Shown in pieces: positions 2,334 through 64,000 of a stretch of 64,000 nucleotides of DNA. The first letter of the stretch is position 1. Each line of letters begins with the position of its first letter. Where the stretch lies: contig OMXJ01000004.1 in NCBI GenBank assembly GCA_900315015.1, forward strand, positions 62,001 through 126,000. Reading direction: 5' to 3'. The translations under genes and the position numbers were made by a program. Source of the stretch: an uncultured Eubacteriales bacterium. GTDB taxonomy: Bacteria > Bacillota > Clostridia > Lachnospirales > Lachnospiraceae. Below the pieces are notes generated by a model that saw only the letters and a program-made list of their open reading frames with translations, ran no database searches and had not been told where the DNA came from.

Positions 2334-2481
2334 TGAAAATTTTAGAGCACGCCCTTTTATAAGAAGCATGAAATATGAGAGCACGCCCTTTTATAAGAAA
2401 CATGAAAATATGAGAGCAAGCTCTTTTATAAGAAACATGAAATATGAGAACATGCCACTTTGTAAAAAAATAGAAATGTGA
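2310..2481 (+). repeat. Tandem repeat made from the 3' end of rqcH, five units of 34-35 bp
   Basis: Units start at 2310, 2345, 2379, 2414 and 2448. The first is the coding end of rqcH (GAGCTGACG... to the stop at 2331-2333 and just beyond). The others begin GAGCACGCCC or GAGCAAGCTC and share TTTTATAAGAA and CATGAAA blocks. Unit 1 and unit 3 match at about 24 of 35 positions, while units 2 to 4 are nearly identical. The array lies between rqcH and the PHP gene, and no terminator is visible there. Confidence 0.85.
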
Positions 2482-2512
2482 AATATGTATGTGTTGGTAA
2501 AGGAGGAAGAAA

Positions 2513-3403
2513 ATGATTATTTCTGATTTACATACACATTCAAGCTTTTCAACAGACTCAGAGGCACCTCAGGAGGAGATGCTCGATAGAGCAATATCCC
2601 TAGGTCTAAAGACCTATTGCTTTACAGACCATTATGATTATATCTGGCCAGAGCAATATGAGGATAGATTTATCTTTGACGTTGATAAGTATTTTGAAAA
2701 GCTTACTGCCTTAAAGCAGGCGTATAAAGGAAAGATAGAAGTTCTTATAGGAGTTGAGGAAGGACTTAGAAATGAGCCAGGCCTCCCTGAGCAGGTAAAG
2801 AGCTTTTATGATGAGATGAATTCAAAATACCCGTTTGATTTTGTAATCGGCTCAAGCCACATACTAAGATATTACGATCCTTATTATGAGGATTACTGGA
2901 GTGGTAAGCCGGCACCGGGCAAGGATTTAGGAGCACCTGATTATGCCAAAAATAAAGAAAGGCTGAGCCTTGAGGACGGTCTTAGAGAGTATTTTGAATC
3001 TATTTTATTTAATAGCAAAAACTATGATAATTATGACATCTATGGTCATCTTGATTACATAGTACGCTATGCTCCGGGACTTAGCAAGGAGGAAAAGGAT
3101 TATTCGCCTATGGATTTTAAAAATATAATTGATGAAATTCTTAAGGAAATAATAGCAAAGGGGAAGGGCATAGAAATAAATACCTCAGGAATAAAGTATG
3201 GACTTGGCTATACTCACCCGAAAGAATGGATAGTAAAGCGTTATCATGAGCTTGGAGGAGAAATAATTACCGTAGGTTCTGATGCACATCAAAAGGAACA
3301 TATTGCGTATGGCTTTGATACGGCGGCAAGTGTCCTAGAAAACAGCGGCTTTAAGTATTATTGTATTTTTAGAAATAGAAAGCCGGAATTTATTAAGTTA
3401 TAA
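2513..3403 (+). CDS. PHP-domain phosphatase, histidinol-phosphatase-like
   Basis: This is a 296-residue metal-dependent phosphoesterase of the PHP superfamily, closest in layout to the HisJ/HisK-type histidinol-phosphatases (last but one step of histidine synthesis). Metal-ligand motifs are in order: DLHTHS (residues 5-10), FTDH (37-40), VEEG (81-84), SSH (114-116), GHLD (179-182), EINTSG (221-226) and GSDAH (255-259). A strong GGAGG site lies 8-12 bp before the ATG. No his genes are nearby, so the substrate is inferred from family resemblance only; another phosphoester is possible. The stop codon is followed in the same frame by 28 further open codons (see findings). Confidence 0.85.
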   Translation: MIISDLHTHSSFSTDSEAPQEEMLDRAISLGLKTYCFTDHYDYIWPEQYEDRFIFDVDKYFEKLTALKQAYKGKIEVLIGVEEGLRNEPGLPEQVKSFYDEMNSKYPFDFVIGSSHILRYYDPYYEDYWSGKPAPGKDLGAPDYAKNKERLSLEDGLREYFESILFNSKNYDNYDIYGHLDYIVRYAPGLSKEEKDYSPMDFKNIIDEILKEIIAKGKGIEINTSGIKYGLGYTHPKEWIVKRYHELGGEIITVGSDAHQKEHIAYGFDTAASVLENSGFKYYCIFRNRKPEFIKL

Positions 3404-3536
3404 AAAGATGAGGACATTGAAATAACAGCACCAGAGAAAACTATTAATGTTATAGAATTTGTGTCTGCTTTAGTTGGCAGCATGAAATAATAATTGCAGG
3501 TTTTATTATGAAAACTAAGGAGTATAAATAGAAAGT

Positions 3537-4553
3537 ATGTACAATTTTTTAATTAAGCTAGAGAGGAAGTTTGCAAGGTATTCAATAAGGAATCTTACTA
3601 ACATAATGATGGTTATTTATGCAATCAGTTATATTATTGAAATTGCAACGCCTGAACTAATGCCTTATTTGTATTTTAATCTTTATGATATCATATATCA
3701 TTATCAGTTCTGGAGAATAATCAGTTGGGTGTTATTACCGCCGGAAGCTCTTGATATTTTTATTATATTCATGTTTATTTTTTACTGGCATGCGGGTAAC
3801 AGTCTTGAACGCTCCTGGGGAGCATTTAGGTATAATGTATTCATTTTTTCGGGTATTATATTTATGATGATTGGAGCAATATTGCTTTACTTTATTGGAC
3901 CGCATGTGTATCCTGAAATATTTGAGGTATCTAAGGAATATGGGTATGAAGTAATTTATACATCGCATCATGTATCTACTTCGTATGTTAATTTTTCGCT
4001 GTTCCTTGCTTATGCAATAACATATCCGGAATTAGAAATATACTTTATGATGTTGATTCCAATAAAAATGAAGTACATAGGCTTTGCATATGGCACCTAT
4101 ATTTTATATTCTCTGTTCAAAGTTGATGATTTAATGTATAGAGTTTATACTGTAATGACCTTGCTCAATGTAATTCTTTTAGTAGTAGTGTCAAGAAAAT
4201 TCTTCTTAACTACACCTGAAGAGAGCCGTAGACGTTATGTATTTAAAAAAGAAATACGAGAGGGCATGAAGGGCAAGTATAAGCCTAAGAAGGTAGATGG
4301 CAGTAATGTTGTTAGTTTTGCAACTGGAAAAGGGCTTGCTAGACATAGATGTGTAGTCTGTGGTAGAACAGAATTAGATGATCCAAATCTTGAATTCCGT
4401 TTCTGTTCACAGTGTGATGGTGAGTATGAATATTGCCTGGAGCATCTTCACAATCATGTTCATATAAAAAAGAATCCAGTGGCTTCTAGTGAGGAAGGGG
4501 ATTCTAAAGAAACTAAGACAGCTGAAAGTTCTCAAAGCGATAATAATTCGTAA
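3537..4553 (+). CDS. Rhomboid-like membrane protein with C-terminal zinc-ribbon, probable pseudoprotease
   Basis: The protein has 338 residues with about six hydrophobic segments (residues 20-220), then a basic linker and a cysteine/histidine-rich tail. The order of segments, the amphipathic WRIISWVLLPP stretch and LERSWGAFRY resemble the rhomboid/derlin fold. I do not see the catalytic GxSG serine motif or the partner histidine, so proteolysis is unlikely. The tail carries CVVC (272-275), CSQC (290-293), C300 and an HLHNHVH cluster (303-309), suggesting one or two zinc sites. An AAGGAG site precedes the ATG at a rather long spacing. It is followed after 6 bp by an ABC-2 permease, so it may share that operon. 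Function unknown. Confidence 0.7.
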   Translation: MYNFLIKLERKFARYSIRNLTNIMMVIYAISYIIEIATPELMPYLYFNLYDIIYHYQFWRIISWVLLPPEALDIFIIFMFIFYWHAGNSLERSWGAFRYNVFIFSGIIFMMIGAILLYFIGPHVYPEIFEVSKEYGYEVIYTSHHVSTSYVNFSLFLAYAITYPELEIYFMMLIPIKMKYIGFAYGTYILYSLFKVDDLMYRVYTVMTLLNVILLVVVSRKFFLTTPEESRRRYVFKKEIREGMKGKYKPKKVDGSNVVSFATGKGLARHRCVVCGRTELDDPNLEFRFCSQCDGEYEYCLEHLHNHVHIKKNPVASSEEGDSKETKTAESSQSDNNS

Positions 4554-57927: not shown

Positions 57928-58401
57928 TTACGCGAAAGTCCTGCCAGAAAGCACTTCTTTAGTAGCACAGATCTTATCGGCGATGCATACGATCCAGGCT
58001 TCCCTATTTGTAGGAGGGATAACAGTGAGAGGGAACATATGTCTTTTAATGATGATCTTTTCGATATCATTAAGTTCCCAATCCTCTTCGGCATTCTTAA
58101 GTGCAGTGGTAGGATGGGTAAAGCCATGGATATTATGGCCCTTTCTTTCCTTCTCGTGCCAGTCGTATAAAAAGTAATCATGGAGCAGGGCACCGACAAT
58201 TAAAGAGTGAAGATTTACAGTAATACCAAGCTTTTCAGCGATTATAACGCTAAGGAGCGCAACACCGAAGCAGTGGTCATAAACTGAGATATTTGAATGC
58301 TGGATATATTTTTTAGTATCCGAATATCTGCCTTCCTTTTCTAGTCTTATTGCTTCCTTTCTTATCATACTCTTATATTTCTCAAGTAATATATTAGACA
58401 T
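57928..58401 (-). CDS. HD-domain protein
   Basis: I start it at 58401, where GGAAAGGA precedes the ATG, giving 157 residues; a start at 58434 is less likely. It has the HD phosphohydrolase pattern: an early histidine (VYDHCFGVALLS), the HD pair in VGALLHDYFLYDWH and IIKRHMFPL later. Such proteins act on nucleotides or phosphoesters, but the substrate is unknown. It is divergent from the pel genes and convergent with the ABC-F gene. Family assignment is good, function open. Confidence 0.87.
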   Translation of the reverse strand: MSNILLEKYKSMIRKEAIRLEKEGRYSDTKKYIQHSNISVYDHCFGVALLSVIIAEKLGITVNLHSLIVGALLHDYFLYDWHEKERKGHNIHGFTHPTTALKNAEEDWELNDIEKIIIKRHMFPLTVIPPTNREAWIVCIADKICATKEVLSGRTFA

Positions 58402-58473
58402 ATCTATTCCTTTCCGTCTAAAAAAGCTATTCAATTAAGTGGTTTGCAATAACTAACAAACTCACCACCTTAC

Positions 58474-58640: not shown

Positions 58641-58661
58641 GGGTTTGGAGGTAGAAAAATA

Positions 58662-60812
58662 ATGAACATACTATTTACAGGAAATATACGTCCTATTTCT
58701 GTGAATTTTTTTAAAAAAGTTTCTGAGGACAATACCTGTGTTGTATTTGAAGATTATAGCAATGAGGGGCATTTTCTAGCTGATAAGCAGAATAAAGAAG
58801 AAGAGCCGCGTAATCTTGAGAAAATACGAAAATTAAAAAATGTAAAGGTATTTACGACAGAGACAGAGCAGACACTGACAGATCTATATGTAGCATATAG
58901 CTTTGACATGGTGGTATATGTATCAAAAGCGATAGATGGGGCTATTCGCATTTATGATGACTTAGAAATGCTCGAAGAAAATATGTATCTTTGCAGGCAT
59001 AATAAAATAAAGAATTTTGTATTGATTACATCAAATGATGTAAATGCACCGGTTGTACAGGATACAGCAAGAAGCAGAAACAGAAGAGTATTAAATATGA
59101 CAGGCGAGAGGCTTGCATATATAGGCGCATCTGAAGATGAAATGCATACGCAGATCTTAAGAGTTCCGCATATGTATTCAACCGAAGAAAATGACTGGCA
59201 GCTAGAGAAATGGATCCATTCAGCAGTCAGGACAAAGAAAATTTCATTTACAGGCTATAGAGACGAGAACACCGATTTCTTAAATGATGAAGATCTGGGT
59301 GTTCTTGTGGCGCGTATTGCAGATTTACCACCGGATGAGAAGTATCTTGAAATGAATCTTGGGGGAGGAAACATTGAATCCTTAAACGATTTAGTAAACT
59401 GCATAAAGAAAAATATTCCGGGAGTAACCGGAACCTTCAAGAATTTTGTTGTAGGACAGCCAATAGCTTACGGGGATAATACTGCAAAGAAGGAATACGG
59501 CTGGTATCCAACACATGATTTAAGAAAAGAGCTTCCAGACATAATAAGCTCTGTAAAAAATGATATCTTAAATCTGAGCAAAAAGAAAAAGAGAATGAGA
59601 AATCTTAAGAGAATCGGAGAGGTGACCAGAGTAACGGCTGAAATAGCAGTACTTGCGGTAATCACTGAATGGCTGAATCATCTGGTAAAGGGTAATTCTC
59701 TGCTTGAATTTATGGATTTCAGGCTCTTAGCAGTGCTGATAGTAGGAACAATGAATGGACTTATGCCAGGCCTTATATCAGCCCTAATAGCTAGTTTTGG
59801 ATACCTCTTTTCATTACTAGATACAGTGAGCTGGCAGCTTCTTATAACGAACATTCAGAACTGGCTGCCATTTGCGGCTTACTTCCTATTAGGATCAGTA
59901 ACAGGCTACGGCAGAGATAAGATGAACGATAAGCTAAAGAATGTGACAGAAGAAAATGAAGTAATGGAGAAGAAGTACGTATTCTTAAATCTTCTTTATC
60001 ATGATGTATTAAAGACAGCAGAGCACTACAACAACCAGATCATCGGCTATAAGGACAGCTACGGAAAGATCTACTCAGCAGTAAAAGAACTTGAAAAGCT
60101 CTCAACTGAAGAAGTACTCTATGAAGCAGTTCAGGTATTAGAAAAAATGCTTGGAAGTGAATCCATTGGCATCTATAGCTGTAAAAAGGATAGCTGGATG
60201 GCTCGTCTTGAAGTATGCTCTAAGAATGAAAATGAAAGAATGAAGAAGTCCATAGATTTAAGGAACTATATGGAATTTATGGATGAAATGGAGAAGAATG
60301 AGACATTTATAAATAGGGAATGCTTACCGGATTATCCAGCATATGCAGCACCTATTTATGACGGAGAGTATCTATACGGAATAGTCATCATAAAGGAGGC
60401 TGATGAAAGTCAGCTGAACATTGAATTCTCAAATAAATTTACAATAATTTCAAAGCTCATATCCTCATCAATAACAAATGCCATAAAGGAAACCACAAGA
60501 GTGGATAGATTCGTAAAGGGCACAAAGGTATTAAATAGTGAAAACTTTGCAAAGCTCGTAGATATAAGAAAGAAGATGTTCGAAAAGAACTTTGCAGACT
60601 ATACACTTATTAAAATCAATAGCCAGGGCGAAGCAATAAATGAAATTGAGAAGAAAATCGAAAAGGTTACAAGAAATAATGATGTACTTGGAATAGGAAA
60701 GAATAACGAGCTATATCTTCTATTAGTACAGACAGGAAATGTAGGTGCAGAAAAGGTAGCAGGAAGACTAACTGAAATAGGTCAGCAATTCGAGATTGTA
60801 AAGGACTATTAA
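58662..60812 (+). CDS. pelD: PelD-type c-di-GMP receptor fused to an epimerase-like (PelX-like) domain
   Basis: PelD is the inner-membrane receptor that switches on Pel polysaccharide synthesis when it binds c-di-GMP. The 716-residue protein has three parts. Residues 1 to about 305 resemble a NAD-dependent epimerase fold, but the glycine motif is degraded (FTGNIRPIS) and no clear YxxxK is seen. About four membrane segments follow (325-425), then a GAF-like domain (about 440-590) and a GGDEF-like domain (about 600-716). That last domain keeps the I-site RNND (671-674) but has GKNNE in place of GGDEF, as in PelD. pelE starts directly after the stop. Confidence 0.85.
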   Translation: MNILFTGNIRPISVNFFKKVSEDNTCVVFEDYSNEGHFLADKQNKEEEPRNLEKIRKLKNVKVFTTETEQTLTDLYVAYSFDMVVYVSKAIDGAIRIYDDLEMLEENMYLCRHNKIKNFVLITSNDVNAPVVQDTARSRNRRVLNMTGERLAYIGASEDEMHTQILRVPHMYSTEENDWQLEKWIHSAVRTKKISFTGYRDENTDFLNDEDLGVLVARIADLPPDEKYLEMNLGGGNIESLNDLVNCIKKNIPGVTGTFKNFVVGQPIAYGDNTAKKEYGWYPTHDLRKELPDIISSVKNDILNLSKKKKRMRNLKRIGEVTRVTAEIAVLAVITEWLNHLVKGNSLLEFMDFRLLAVLIVGTMNGLMPGLISALIASFGYLFSLLDTVSWQLLITNIQNWLPFAAYFLLGSVTGYGRDKMNDKLKNVTEENEVMEKKYVFLNLLYHDVLKTAEHYNNQIIGYKDSYGKIYSAVKELEKLSTEEVLYEAVQVLEKMLGSESIGIYSCKKDSWMARLEVCSKNENERMKKSIDLRNYMEFMDEMEKNETFINRECLPDYPAYAAPIYDGEYLYGIVIIKEADESQLNIEFSNKFTIISKLISSSITNAIKETTRVDRFVKGTKVLNSENFAKLVDIRKKMFEKNFADYTLIKINSQGEAINEIEKKIEKVTRNNDVLGIGKNNELYLLLVQTGNVGAEKVAGRLTEIGQQFEIVKDY

Positions 60813-61748
60813 ATGATACTGATATTATTAATTCTAATACACCTGATAATAAGTGTGGTGGTCTTTGTTTTGCAGGACATGAACATCTTAAAAATCAGGG
60901 ACAGGATTTATCCTATAGTATATTTAGTGCCTTATGTGGGTTTCATGATGCTGTTAGTTGAGTGCATTATGGACAAAAGAAACCGCATAGGTCAAAGAGA
61001 AATAGACTTAGACAAGCTAGAAATAACCCAGGTCAGATATAAGCAGATAAAGGTACCTCAGAAGGAGGAAAATGAAGTAGTTCCTCTAGAAGAGGCCATG
61101 GCAATAAATGACAGCAGGGTAAGAAGATCTCTGATACTTGATATATTAAGGAAGAATCCTGAAAATTATGTAGCAGTGCTTGAAAAGGCCAGCCTTTCAA
61201 GCGACACAGAGCTCTCCCACTATGCTACAACCTCAATGATGGCAATACAGAGCAGGTATGAAAAGAGCATAACAGAGCTTGAAAAAGAAAAAGAAAGAGA
61301 TAAGGATAATCCGGTAGTACTTGACGATTATGCCACTGTATTAAAGAATTACATTAAAAGTGGCCTCATATCAGGACAGGTGCTTAGGATATATCAAAAT
61401 AAGCTGAATAAGGTGCTTGAAGAACTTAAAGGGCTTTGTCCGGAGAAAATCAAGTATCGTTTTGACTGGATAGACAATAGGCTTGATATAGGAAATACAG
61501 CAGGAGTAAAAGCAGAATGCGAAGACCTGTTAAAGAAATGGCCGGGGGAAGAAAGGTGCTATCAGTCTTATATGGCATATGCCTTTAAGATATCAGATAA
61601 AAAGCTGGCAATGCAGATATTAAAGGAAGTAAAGGAAAAAGAAGTATATCTCTCAAGAGCGGGACGAGAGTGGTACGACTTCTGGAATGCTGAAAGCAAG
61701 GGTGAAGAATTATATGGAAGATCTTCAGGAACAAATCCAAAAATATGA
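60813..61748 (+). CDS. pelE: PelE-like membrane TPR protein
   Basis: The 311-residue protein has two N-terminal membrane segments (about residues 1-20 and 32-52) and a helical cytoplasmic region with TPR-like repeats (NPVVLDDYATVLKNYIK, GVKAECEDLLKKWPGEERCY). PelE is a poorly conserved part of the inner-membrane Pel complex with this layout. The assignment rests on layout and position between pelD and the deacetylase gene. AAAGGA lies in the end of pelD. Its 3' end overlaps the next gene by 35 bp. Confidence 0.75.
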   Translation: MILILLILIHLIISVVVFVLQDMNILKIRDRIYPIVYLVPYVGFMMLLVECIMDKRNRIGQREIDLDKLEITQVRYKQIKVPQKEENEVVPLEEAMAINDSRVRRSLILDILRKNPENYVAVLEKASLSSDTELSHYATTSMMAIQSRYEKSITELEKEKERDKDNPVVLDDYATVLKNYIKSGLISGQVLRIYQNKLNKVLEELKGLCPEKIKYRFDWIDNRLDIGNTAGVKAECEDLLKKWPGEERCYQSYMAYAFKISDKKLAMQILKEVKEKEVYLSRAGREWYDFWNAESKGEELYGRSSGTNPKI

Positions 61749-63618
61749 ACGGGAAGAAATAGCAGATAAAGAAAGAGAAATAAAGAAAAATAGAAAAAAT
61801 AAGAATACCTGGTTCAGAGTAGCAATACCGATAATCGCAATGTTTGTATTTACGGTGTTCGTAGTATTAGAAAGACGAGGAATCTCCGTACAGGTAGCAT
61901 CAAGATTTGAGGATCTGTCAAAAATACAGCTGACAGAAACCTTTGAGCAGGAAAAGGAATGTCTTGTAGTAGTAGACAAAAAGGGAGAAAGCGAAGAAAA
62001 AATCACCTCTGAAATGCTCTTTGTATTAGATAGCTTAAGAGTAGGCTATGATGTAAAGGATGTATCTGAGGTAGACTGGGAAAATGAGCTTAAAAATTAT
62101 AAGACATTAGTACTTTCCTTCCAGGACTGGGATAAGATAGGCGAAGGAGCAGAGCAGCTATCAAAGTGGTTAGTATCAGGCGGAAGAATGATGAATACCA
62201 TGACTCCAGCACCTAACAGTGTATTCTCGCTCCTTGCATCAAAAATAGGAGTAGATTCCTTTTCATCGTATGTAGGAATAGATGGACTAAGGATGGACAA
62301 TAATGCTCTTATAGGAGCAGATCAGAAAAATACCTATAAATTTATGCTGGGTGAAGAAACAGAAATTCTGACTTCACTAGGCGTGTTATTAGATTCAAAG
62401 GCAAAGCGCTATGTATCTTCCTATGACGGAACAGTGCCTCTTATATGGTCAAATGACATAGAGGATGGAAGAGCAGTAATAATGAATTATGTAATTACAG
62501 ATAAATTCCAGAGAGGCTTCTACACACTCTGTTACAGCCTCTTAGAAGATTCCTTCGTGTATCCTGTAATAAATGGTTCATCATTTTACATAGACGACTT
62601 CCCGGCACCAGTACCAGGAGGAAACGGAGAATATATCGAAAGAGACTACGGAATAGATACAGCAAGCTTTTACTCAACTGTATGGTGGCCTCAGATACTC
62701 AACTGGCAGAAGCAGTACGGAATAGTATATACAGGACTCATAATCGAAGATTATAACAACTTTGTTGAAGGAGAACTGCCAAGAAATAAGCAGACCAGCA
62801 GATTCTCATTGTTCGGAAATACCATGATAAATAATGGAAATGAGCTAGGACTCCATGGCTATAATCACCAGCCGCTTTGCGTAGAAGGAATAGATGATAA
62901 TATGCAGTTCGGTGAATACAAGCTCTGGGCAAGCGAAGAAGATCTAAAGAACTCCATAAAGGAGCTTGTAGAATTCTCAAGTGCACTATATCCAACCGAA
63001 AAGTTCCAGGTATATGTACCGCCATCGAACATCATGTCAGAAACCGGAGAAAAGCTCTTGCTTGAAGCAGCACCTGATATAAAGGTAATAGCGAGTGTAT
63101 ATCTAAAAGCAGATGGCGTAGAAAGCATGGTACAGGAATTCACAGTAGAAGAAAACGGCATAATAGATACACCAAGAGTAGTATCAGGCTGCATGCTGGA
63201 TGAATACGCAAAGCTTACTGCTTTTTCAGAATTTAACTTCCATTACGTACAGTCACATTTCGTACATCCGGATGATATATTAGATGAAGACAGAGGTGCA
63301 AAGAGCGGATGGCCTGAAATGTCAAGACAGTTTACAGAATATCTGGAATTAGTAAAGAATGCTGTACCAGATATGAGAAACCTCTCAGGAACAGACATGG
63401 GAGCAGCAACCTATAGATATTGCGGTCTATCAGTAGAAAGAGATATAAAGGACGGCGAAATAGACGTAAGGCTCGGAGGTTTTTCAAAGGAAGCGTATCT
63501 CCTTCTTAGAATAAACGAGGGCGAAGTAAAGAATACAGAAGGCTGCACAGTTACAGAGGTAGCAGATGGTCTGTATTTAGTAAAAGCAGTAGAAGAAAAC
63601 ATCAAAATATATTATTAA
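61714..63618 (+). CDS. DUF2194 PelA-like polysaccharide deacetylase
   Basis: I start it at the ATG at 61714, with AAGGGTGA about 8 bp upstream, giving 634 residues; an in-frame ATG at 61687 lacks a site. It has a basic N-terminus and one membrane anchor (about residues 36-55), then a large extracellular part. NodB-type metal residues are D294-D295 (FYIDDFPAP) and H381/H385 (LGLHGYNHQP), with YVPPSN later. DUF2194 is found in Pel deacetylases; in P. aeruginosa PelA a glycoside hydrolase domain is joined to it, but is absent here. It probably removes acetyl groups from Pel at the cell surface. Confidence 0.83.
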   Translation: MEDLQEQIQKYEREEIADKEREIKKNRKNKNTWFRVAIPIIAMFVFTVFVVLERRGISVQVASRFEDLSKIQLTETFEQEKECLVVVDKKGESEEKITSEMLFVLDSLRVGYDVKDVSEVDWENELKNYKTLVLSFQDWDKIGEGAEQLSKWLVSGGRMMNTMTPAPNSVFSLLASKIGVDSFSSYVGIDGLRMDNNALIGADQKNTYKFMLGEETEILTSLGVLLDSKAKRYVSSYDGTVPLIWSNDIEDGRAVIMNYVITDKFQRGFYTLCYSLLEDSFVYPVINGSSFYIDDFPAPVPGGNGEYIERDYGIDTASFYSTVWWPQILNWQKQYGIVYTGLIIEDYNNFVEGELPRNKQTSRFSLFGNTMINNGNELGLHGYNHQPLCVEGIDDNMQFGEYKLWASEEDLKNSIKELVEFSSALYPTEKFQVYVPPSNIMSETGEKLLLEAAPDIKVIASVYLKADGVESMVQEFTVEENGIIDTPRVVSGCMLDEYAKLTAFSEFNFHYVQSHFVHPDDILDEDRGAKSGWPEMSRQFTEYLELVKNAVPDMRNLSGTDMGAATYRYCGLSVERDIKDGEIDVRLGGFSKEAYLLLRINEGEVKNTEGCTVTEVADGLYLVKAVEENIKIYY

Positions 63619-63630
63619 TGGAGAAAAAAA

Positions 63631-64000
63631 GTGAGGGTATGTTTTATTCTTGAAGGATGCTACCCTTATGTATTTGGAGGCGTTTCAAGCTGGACGCATC
63701 ATTACATAGAGGCAATGCCTGATGTTGAGTTCGTACTCTGGTGCATAGGTTCAAAGGAAGAATTAAAAGGAAAATATAAATTTCAGCTTCCTAAGAACGT
63801 AGTAGAGATACATGAAGTATTTCTAGATACGGCGCTAGAAATAAAAATGGATAAACGTCAGAGAAAGCATCCAAAAATAACAAAAGAAGAAAGAGAAGAG
63901 ATGCAGAATCTTTTTGCAGGAAATGATGTAAATTGGGATGTGTTGTTCAATCTTTTCCAGGAAAAAAAGATGAATCCGACCTCCCTGCTCATGAGTCAGG
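63631..64000 (+). CDS. pelF: PelF glycosyltransferase, N-terminal part
   Basis: The frame is open to the end of the window (123 codons). It starts with GTG at 63631, with TGGAGAAA upstream; an ATG at 63619 is in another frame that soon stops. The start VRVCFILEGCYPYVFGGVSS with WTHHYIEAMP is the hallmark of PelF, the cytosolic GT4 enzyme that uses UDP-GalNAc/GlcNAc to build Pel. It is 12 bp after the deacetylase gene. A pelG gene is expected next, outside the window. Confidence 0.92.
   Translation, partial: MRVCFILEGCYPYVFGGVSSWTHHYIEAMPDVEFVLWCIGSKEELKGKYKFQLPKNVVEIHEVFLDTALEIKMDKRQRKHPKITKEEREEMQNLFAGNDVNWDVLFNLFQEKKMNPTSLLMSQ

Follow-up and report, generated by a model that had tools for sequence, protein, structure and literature searches.

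The pelD locus and its gene neighbourhood

Bacteria of various phyla make the biofilm polymer Pel, whose production is switched on by the membrane receptor PelD. The window (the whole stretch of 64,000 nucleotides analysed here, from an uncultured Lachnospiraceae genome) carries near its end a pelD gene opening with ATG, the first gene of a pelD-pelE-pelA(DUF2194)-pelF operon (Table 1), which continues on the contig beyond the window with pelG, two cotH genes and genes for a VTC-type protein, DUF4956 and DUF4832. The operon thus contains pelE, pelA, pelF and pelG alongside pelD, although the 311-residue pelE-like product matched no Pfam family and is assigned by position; the true start of the pelA deacetylase gene probably lies downstream of its ORF start at 61687. 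No RNA family was detected at the operon start in an Rfam scan, and promoter matches for the operon were at chance level only. A gene for an HD-domain (HDIG) protein is divergent from pelD (57928–58434, minus strand); its product had no match to the HD-GYP family.

Table 1 Features of the pelD locus (window coordinates).
Feature	Position	Strand	Basis or remark
GGAGG ribosome-binding site 5' of pelD	58647–58651	+	Read directly
pelD, 716 aa	58662–60812	+	Pseudo-SDR, membrane helices, coiled coil, GAF, degenerate GGDEF
Predicted dead extended-SDR (epimerase-like) domain, residues 1–286	58662–59519	+	Profile, AlphaFold2, Foldseek
Former TGxxGxxG loop, residues 6–13 (TGNIRPIS)	58677–58700	+	G7 kept, G10 to R, G13 to S
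Arg141 in place of catalytic Tyr	59082–59084	+	Alignments
Asn145 in place of catalytic Lys	59094–59096	+	Alignments
Linker helix from SDR to first membrane helix, residues 287–341	59520–59684	+	AlphaFold2 full-length model
Membrane-helix region, residues 330–422	59649–59927	+	DUF4118 match weak, below cut-off; AlphaFold2
Long helix / coiled coil, residues 398–479	59853–60098	+	AlphaFold2 full-length model
GAF-like domain, residues 482–611	60105–60494	+	Model; GAF in homologues
Degenerate GGDEF domain	60498–60809	+	GGDEF motif lost
c-di-GMP I-site RxxD (R671-N-N-D674)	60672–60683	+	Conservation
pelE-like gene, 311 aa	60813–61748	+	Operon position
pelA_DA, DUF2194 / polysaccharide deacetylase	61687–63618	+	PF09960, E 1e-160
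pelF glycosyltransferase, cut by window end	63631–64000	+	

The receptor end of the window protein has the membrane helices, GAF-like domain and degenerate GGDEF domain with RxxD expected of a PelD, with the GAF assignment drawn from the model and from homologues, as Pfam gave no GAF match in the protein itself; the full-length model has a pTM of 0.59, which leaves the relative placement of the domains uncertain. The RxxD motif is kept in 93 of 95 PelD rows with a dead-type SDR domain (defined below) and in all 21 rows with an intact one, and both exceptions are streptococcal. Binding of c-di-GMP has been demonstrated only for the PelDs of Bacillus cereus and Pseudomonas aeruginosa (PMC7112168), and by analogy with the B. 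cereus protein we infer that the window PelD would also bind it. Supply of the ligand is likely, since the window genome has 28 GGDEF matches. Streptococcal PelDs have been described as lacking GGDEF; two of them (L099:4261–6345 and L107:5172–7217) align to the C-terminal part of the domain, where another residue stands in place of the RxxD Arg (GAFD and TIFD), so that the domain persists there as a remnant instead of being wholly absent.

An epimerase fold that has lost its active site

Searches of Pfam and NCBIfam with the single window PelD sequence gave no epimerase match and single-sequence phmmer gave a marginal one (E 0.039), so family profiles were needed. While a scan of genome contigs with PelD as query returned nothing, PelF succeeded as an anchor, and a profile was built from 67 homologous N-termini gathered via 80 pelF-anchored loci in named genomes. 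This profile matched extended short-chain dehydrogenases/reductases (SDRs) in the PDB along the entire profile, including a UDP-GlcNAc 4-epimerase (E 7e-17 to 7e-16), and when GalE-type enzymes of the window genome were compared with it profile to profile the E-value was 5e-15 over 279 columns. AlphaFold2 modelled the domain with high confidence (pLDDT 92.3, pTM 0.92) as a Rossmann fold followed by a C-terminal substrate domain, the arrangement of extended SDRs. The nearest solved folds are UDP-sugar 4-epimerases (Foldseek TM ~0.72), with a UDP-GlcA 4-epimerase as top match (E 4.9e-15, TM 0.72). The resemblance is far above chance. A frameshift or wrong start was rejected as the source of the unusual N-terminus, which is encoded in one ORF and recurs in dozens of relatives.

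These analyses bear out the first-pass annotation, made from the sequence alone, in its proposal of a degenerate epimerase domain at the PelD N-terminus, and the structure prediction that it suggested as a check returned an extended-SDR fold. Its extent was overstated: of the proposed residues 1 to ~305 the N-terminal epimerase fold stands, but the fold stops near residue 286 (window position 59519) and residues 287–311 form the part of the linker helix before the first membrane helix. The label 'PelX type' is not retained, as PelX (6wj9) matches more weakly than several other SDRs.

None of the signatures of an active UDP-sugar 4-epimerase (TGxxGxxG, YxxxK and the UDP contacts) is present in the window PelD. 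The annotation had correctly read the glycine-rich loop as lost (its first glycine remains) and YxxxK as absent; two independent alignments place a basic residue at the catalytic Tyr and a non-basic one at the catalytic Lys. The UDP-contact positions (E. coli numbering) are likewise substituted, with Asn179 replaced by H170, Arg231 by T204 and Arg292 by N261. The same pattern extends across the 95 dead-type rows, which comprise two sets (67 + 28) with at least 4 genes in common by contig and length: G10 is kept in 22, G13 in 2, Asp31 in 2, Tyr in 4 and Lys in 2. In no case do Tyr and Lys co-occur, and none of the rows has the complete set of three loop glycines. Arg231 is kept in 0/95, Asn179 in 5/95 and Arg292 in 7/95, against 20–21 of 21 for each of the three in the intact fused domains described below. 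Over eight canonical NAD, catalytic and UDP positions, 58 rows keep none, 30 keep one and 7 keep two. The exception is Ser/Thr124 of the catalytic triad, kept in 75/95, and two-thirds of the rows (66/95) have Arg or Lys at the catalytic Tyr position. Judged by these residues, the SDR domain of PelD is catalytically dead, with the canonical active site gone except for Ser/Thr; the loss of the UDP-binding positions along with the NAD ones, and the predominance of Arg or Lys at the Tyr position, are new here. An ordinary GalE is encoded on another contig of the window genome, so the PelD domain is not needed for general 4-epimerase supply.

Diversity, selection and evolution of fused PelDs

A survey of PelDs, of the kind suggested in the first-pass annotation for Gram-positive ones, yielded the dead-type rows above and, in addition, 21 fused PelDs with an intact SDR domain, all from a single other Bacillota family. 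Of these intact domains, 20 keep all eight NAD, catalytic and UDP positions and the remaining one keeps seven; one such SDR half scored 171 bits against the GalE model, under the cut-off of 262. The contrast between intact (Brevibacillus) and dead (clostridial) versions is thus seen again in a larger sample. An intermediate case is the Bacillota PelD L137, retaining the whole glycine loop and Tyr with Lys replaced by Cys. More than one independent loss of catalysis was suggested by a first tree, but in a careful tree without long branches a single branch (support 95/87) splits the dead and intact types, and multiple losses are not claimed.

Several loci depart from the common gene layout. In L183, an intact epimerase (1501–2469) and an SDR-less PelD (2469–3683) are two genes overlapping at GTGA; both fall inside the fused intact clade, which argues against a fusion in progress, and gene fission is the more probable origin. 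L184 may reflect a frameshift in a poly(A) tract. L185 (1078–2445, minus strand), in which an intact SDR runs straight into a GGDEF-like segment and both the membrane helices and GAF are missing, is an internal deletion or pseudogene. Liquorilactobacillus satsumensis has a separate intact epimerase gene (L066:4113–5057) directly upstream of its dead-SDR pelD. Dead-SDR pelD also lies beside pelF in Treponema MAGs of the Spirochaetota (L101:4996–7164, and L113, which is cut by a contig end), outside the Gram-positive groups reported so far. L010–L029 include a further lineage of PelDs from the same family, also with a dead SDR, and the pel operons of L038 and L039 have an extra gene of 823–903 aa between pelE and pelA (in L039, 9835–12543), for which the one product tested had no Pfam match.

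Seven PelDs of Oscillospiraceae/Clostridia (923–931 aa) have an intact HD-GYP domain fused N-terminally to the dead SDR (L072:1273–4065, L074:4421–7207, L092, L096, L097, L106 and L115), at the same site upstream of pelF. The domain carries HDIGK...HHERYDGTGYP and matches HD_5 (E down to 2e-27) and PDB 4mcw (E 4e-31); these proteins keep RxxD, and those placed in trees form one clade. From their motifs they are likely to combine a c-di-GMP phosphodiesterase with a c-di-GMP receptor. The fusion was not found in the literature searched and is reported here as new.

We found no close relative of the window PelD, and the selection test therefore uses other PelDs of this family. Nei–Gojobori dN/dS for the dead-type SDR domain was 0.05–0.25 (21 close pairs in eight clusters, with several dS values >1 and pairs within a cluster non-independent), compared with 0.04–0.12 for the rest of PelD, and the SDR value was always equal to or above that for the rest of the same protein. 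In the intact fused PelDs the SDR domain was the tighter half in 7/8 pairs (0.015–0.092 versus 0.043–0.135). The dead SDR domain is therefore under purifying selection in these relatives, more relaxed than that on the remaining PelD; this constraint, and the usually tighter intact domain, are additions of the present study.

The 67 PelDs in which the dead domain aligns over its whole extent come from Bacillota, Actinomycetota and Spirochaetota. The fold core is the most conserved part (W281, the C152 position, Y279, Y86, P169 and D211); conservation is low in the catalytic loop and in the UDP-diphosphate loop, the latter being among the least conserved stretches of the domain. The mouth of the former pocket has a new consensus, comprising N8 (42/67), T/S13 (46/67), G30 (43/67, replacing Asp), S88 (60/67) and the Arg/Lys at the Tyr position (66/95), although the window PelD has E30 rather than G30.

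Role of the dead domain and comparison with known systems

We favour, with a probability of roughly 55%, a non-catalytic role for the dead SDR domain as a cytosolic scaffold of PelD in the PelDEFG complex. An ancestral NAD-dependent nucleotide-sugar epimerase would have become fused to PelD and lost the ability to bind cofactor and substrate and to catalyse the reaction, giving a pseudo-epimerase of ~286 residues. Selection would retain this module at the cytosolic face of the membrane, joined through one helix to the first membrane helix, where it most likely acts as a protein–protein scaffold within the synthase complex. Structural tethering, one of two roles raised in the first-pass annotation, is compatible with all the data. 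The scaffold is in part a reading by default. Nor is the domain required in every case, as Streptococcus thermophilus JIM8232 has a PelD that lost it and still forms pel-dependent biofilm (PMC7112168). Streptococcal PelDs, which are not thought to be c-di-GMP sensors, keep the dead domain, which may therefore control PelD in these organisms.

The residues newly conserved around the former pocket mouth could indicate a new ligand rather than a scaffold. The main rival to the scaffold is accordingly that the Rossmann pocket was rebuilt to bind a different ligand (a nucleotide, NAD(P) bound in another way, or a further molecule), with PelD joining this signal to c-di-GMP, a possibility that we consider less likely. 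It is consistent with the location of the new consensus, which falls where the Rossmann strands end, and with the frequent Arg/Lys at the catalytic Tyr position, but the replacements are not universal (E30 in the window being one departure), glycine and small residues may be structural, and conservation is poor in the catalytic loop and in the UDP-diphosphate loop. A fuller version, in which a sensor pocket formed by G7-N8, T/S13, G30, S88 and Arg/Lys141 binds a ligand other than a UDP-sugar, PelD joins c-di-GMP and this second signal, and some Oscillospiraceae modules add a phosphodiesterase that would empty the receptor locally, appears rather unlikely. Sensing of UDP-GlcNAc or UDP-GalNAc, the other role proposed in the annotation, would suit a domain with the fold of nucleotide-sugar epimerases and a polymer that P. 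aeruginosa builds from UDP-GalNAc (PMC12345266); the loss of the UDP contacts (T204, H170 and N261 stand there in the window) alongside the NAD and catalytic residues disfavours sensing in the ancestral mode, and we consider the proposal improbable. Equally doubtful is a decaying remnant of the ancestral fusion: the faster evolution of the SDR relative to the remaining PelD and the tolerated loss in JIM8232 would fit such a vestige, but dN/dS is well below 1 in every dead-type pair and the full-length alignment spans three phyla. That the domain is still an epimerase with an unusual mechanism is very improbable, for although the triad Ser/Thr is commonly kept, the domain has lost Tyr, Lys, two of the loop glycines, the Asp that binds ribose and the UDP residues, and a normal GalE is present in the genome. 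The question is thereby narrowed, with ancestral-mode UDP-sugar sensing unlikely, the domain still constrained and specific candidate residues named.

NmrA-type degenerate SDRs, the analogy for such a rebuilt pocket, sense dinucleotides. Those sensors have an intact glycine-rich loop that binds NAD(P), whereas the window PelD has lost G10 and G13. The domain shares its fold with GalE, PelX and the B. cereus UDP-GlcA 4-epimerase 6zl6 (Foldseek TM 0.72) but lacks their TGxxGxxG, YxxxK and UDP-binding Arg/Asn. The PelDs of P. aeruginosa and B. cereus have the same TM-GAF-degenerate GGDEF order with I-site RxxD as the window protein, without an SDR domain.

The coupling of a dead enzyme domain to a c-di-GMP receptor, as read in the first-pass annotation, is correct and already published (PMC7112168, PMC12345266). 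The type has been known since 2020, when Whitfield described degenerate epimerase domains on the PelDs of clostridia, streptococci and actinobacteria and a functional-looking version in Brevibacillus (PMC7112168), and a passage in PMC12345266 (2025, citing Whitfield & Howell 2021) sorts PelD into four classes. Streptococcus intermedius requires a PelD of the dead-SDR type for Pel, and the function of the domain was called unknown in 2025 (PMC12345266). The Brevibacillus-type PelD has the same domain order as the window protein, but there all catalytic, NAD and UDP residues are kept. The clostridial dead-SDR PelD shares with the window protein the dead N-terminal SDR domain, the membrane helices, the GAF domain and a degenerate GGDEF that carries RxxD, and the clostridial and streptococcal cluster is likewise pelDEA(DA)FG followed by cotH, a VTC-type polyphosphate polymerase, DUF4956 and DUF4832 (PMC7112168). 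Nothing essential differs between the window cluster and the described clostridial one, the window contig having two cotH genes.
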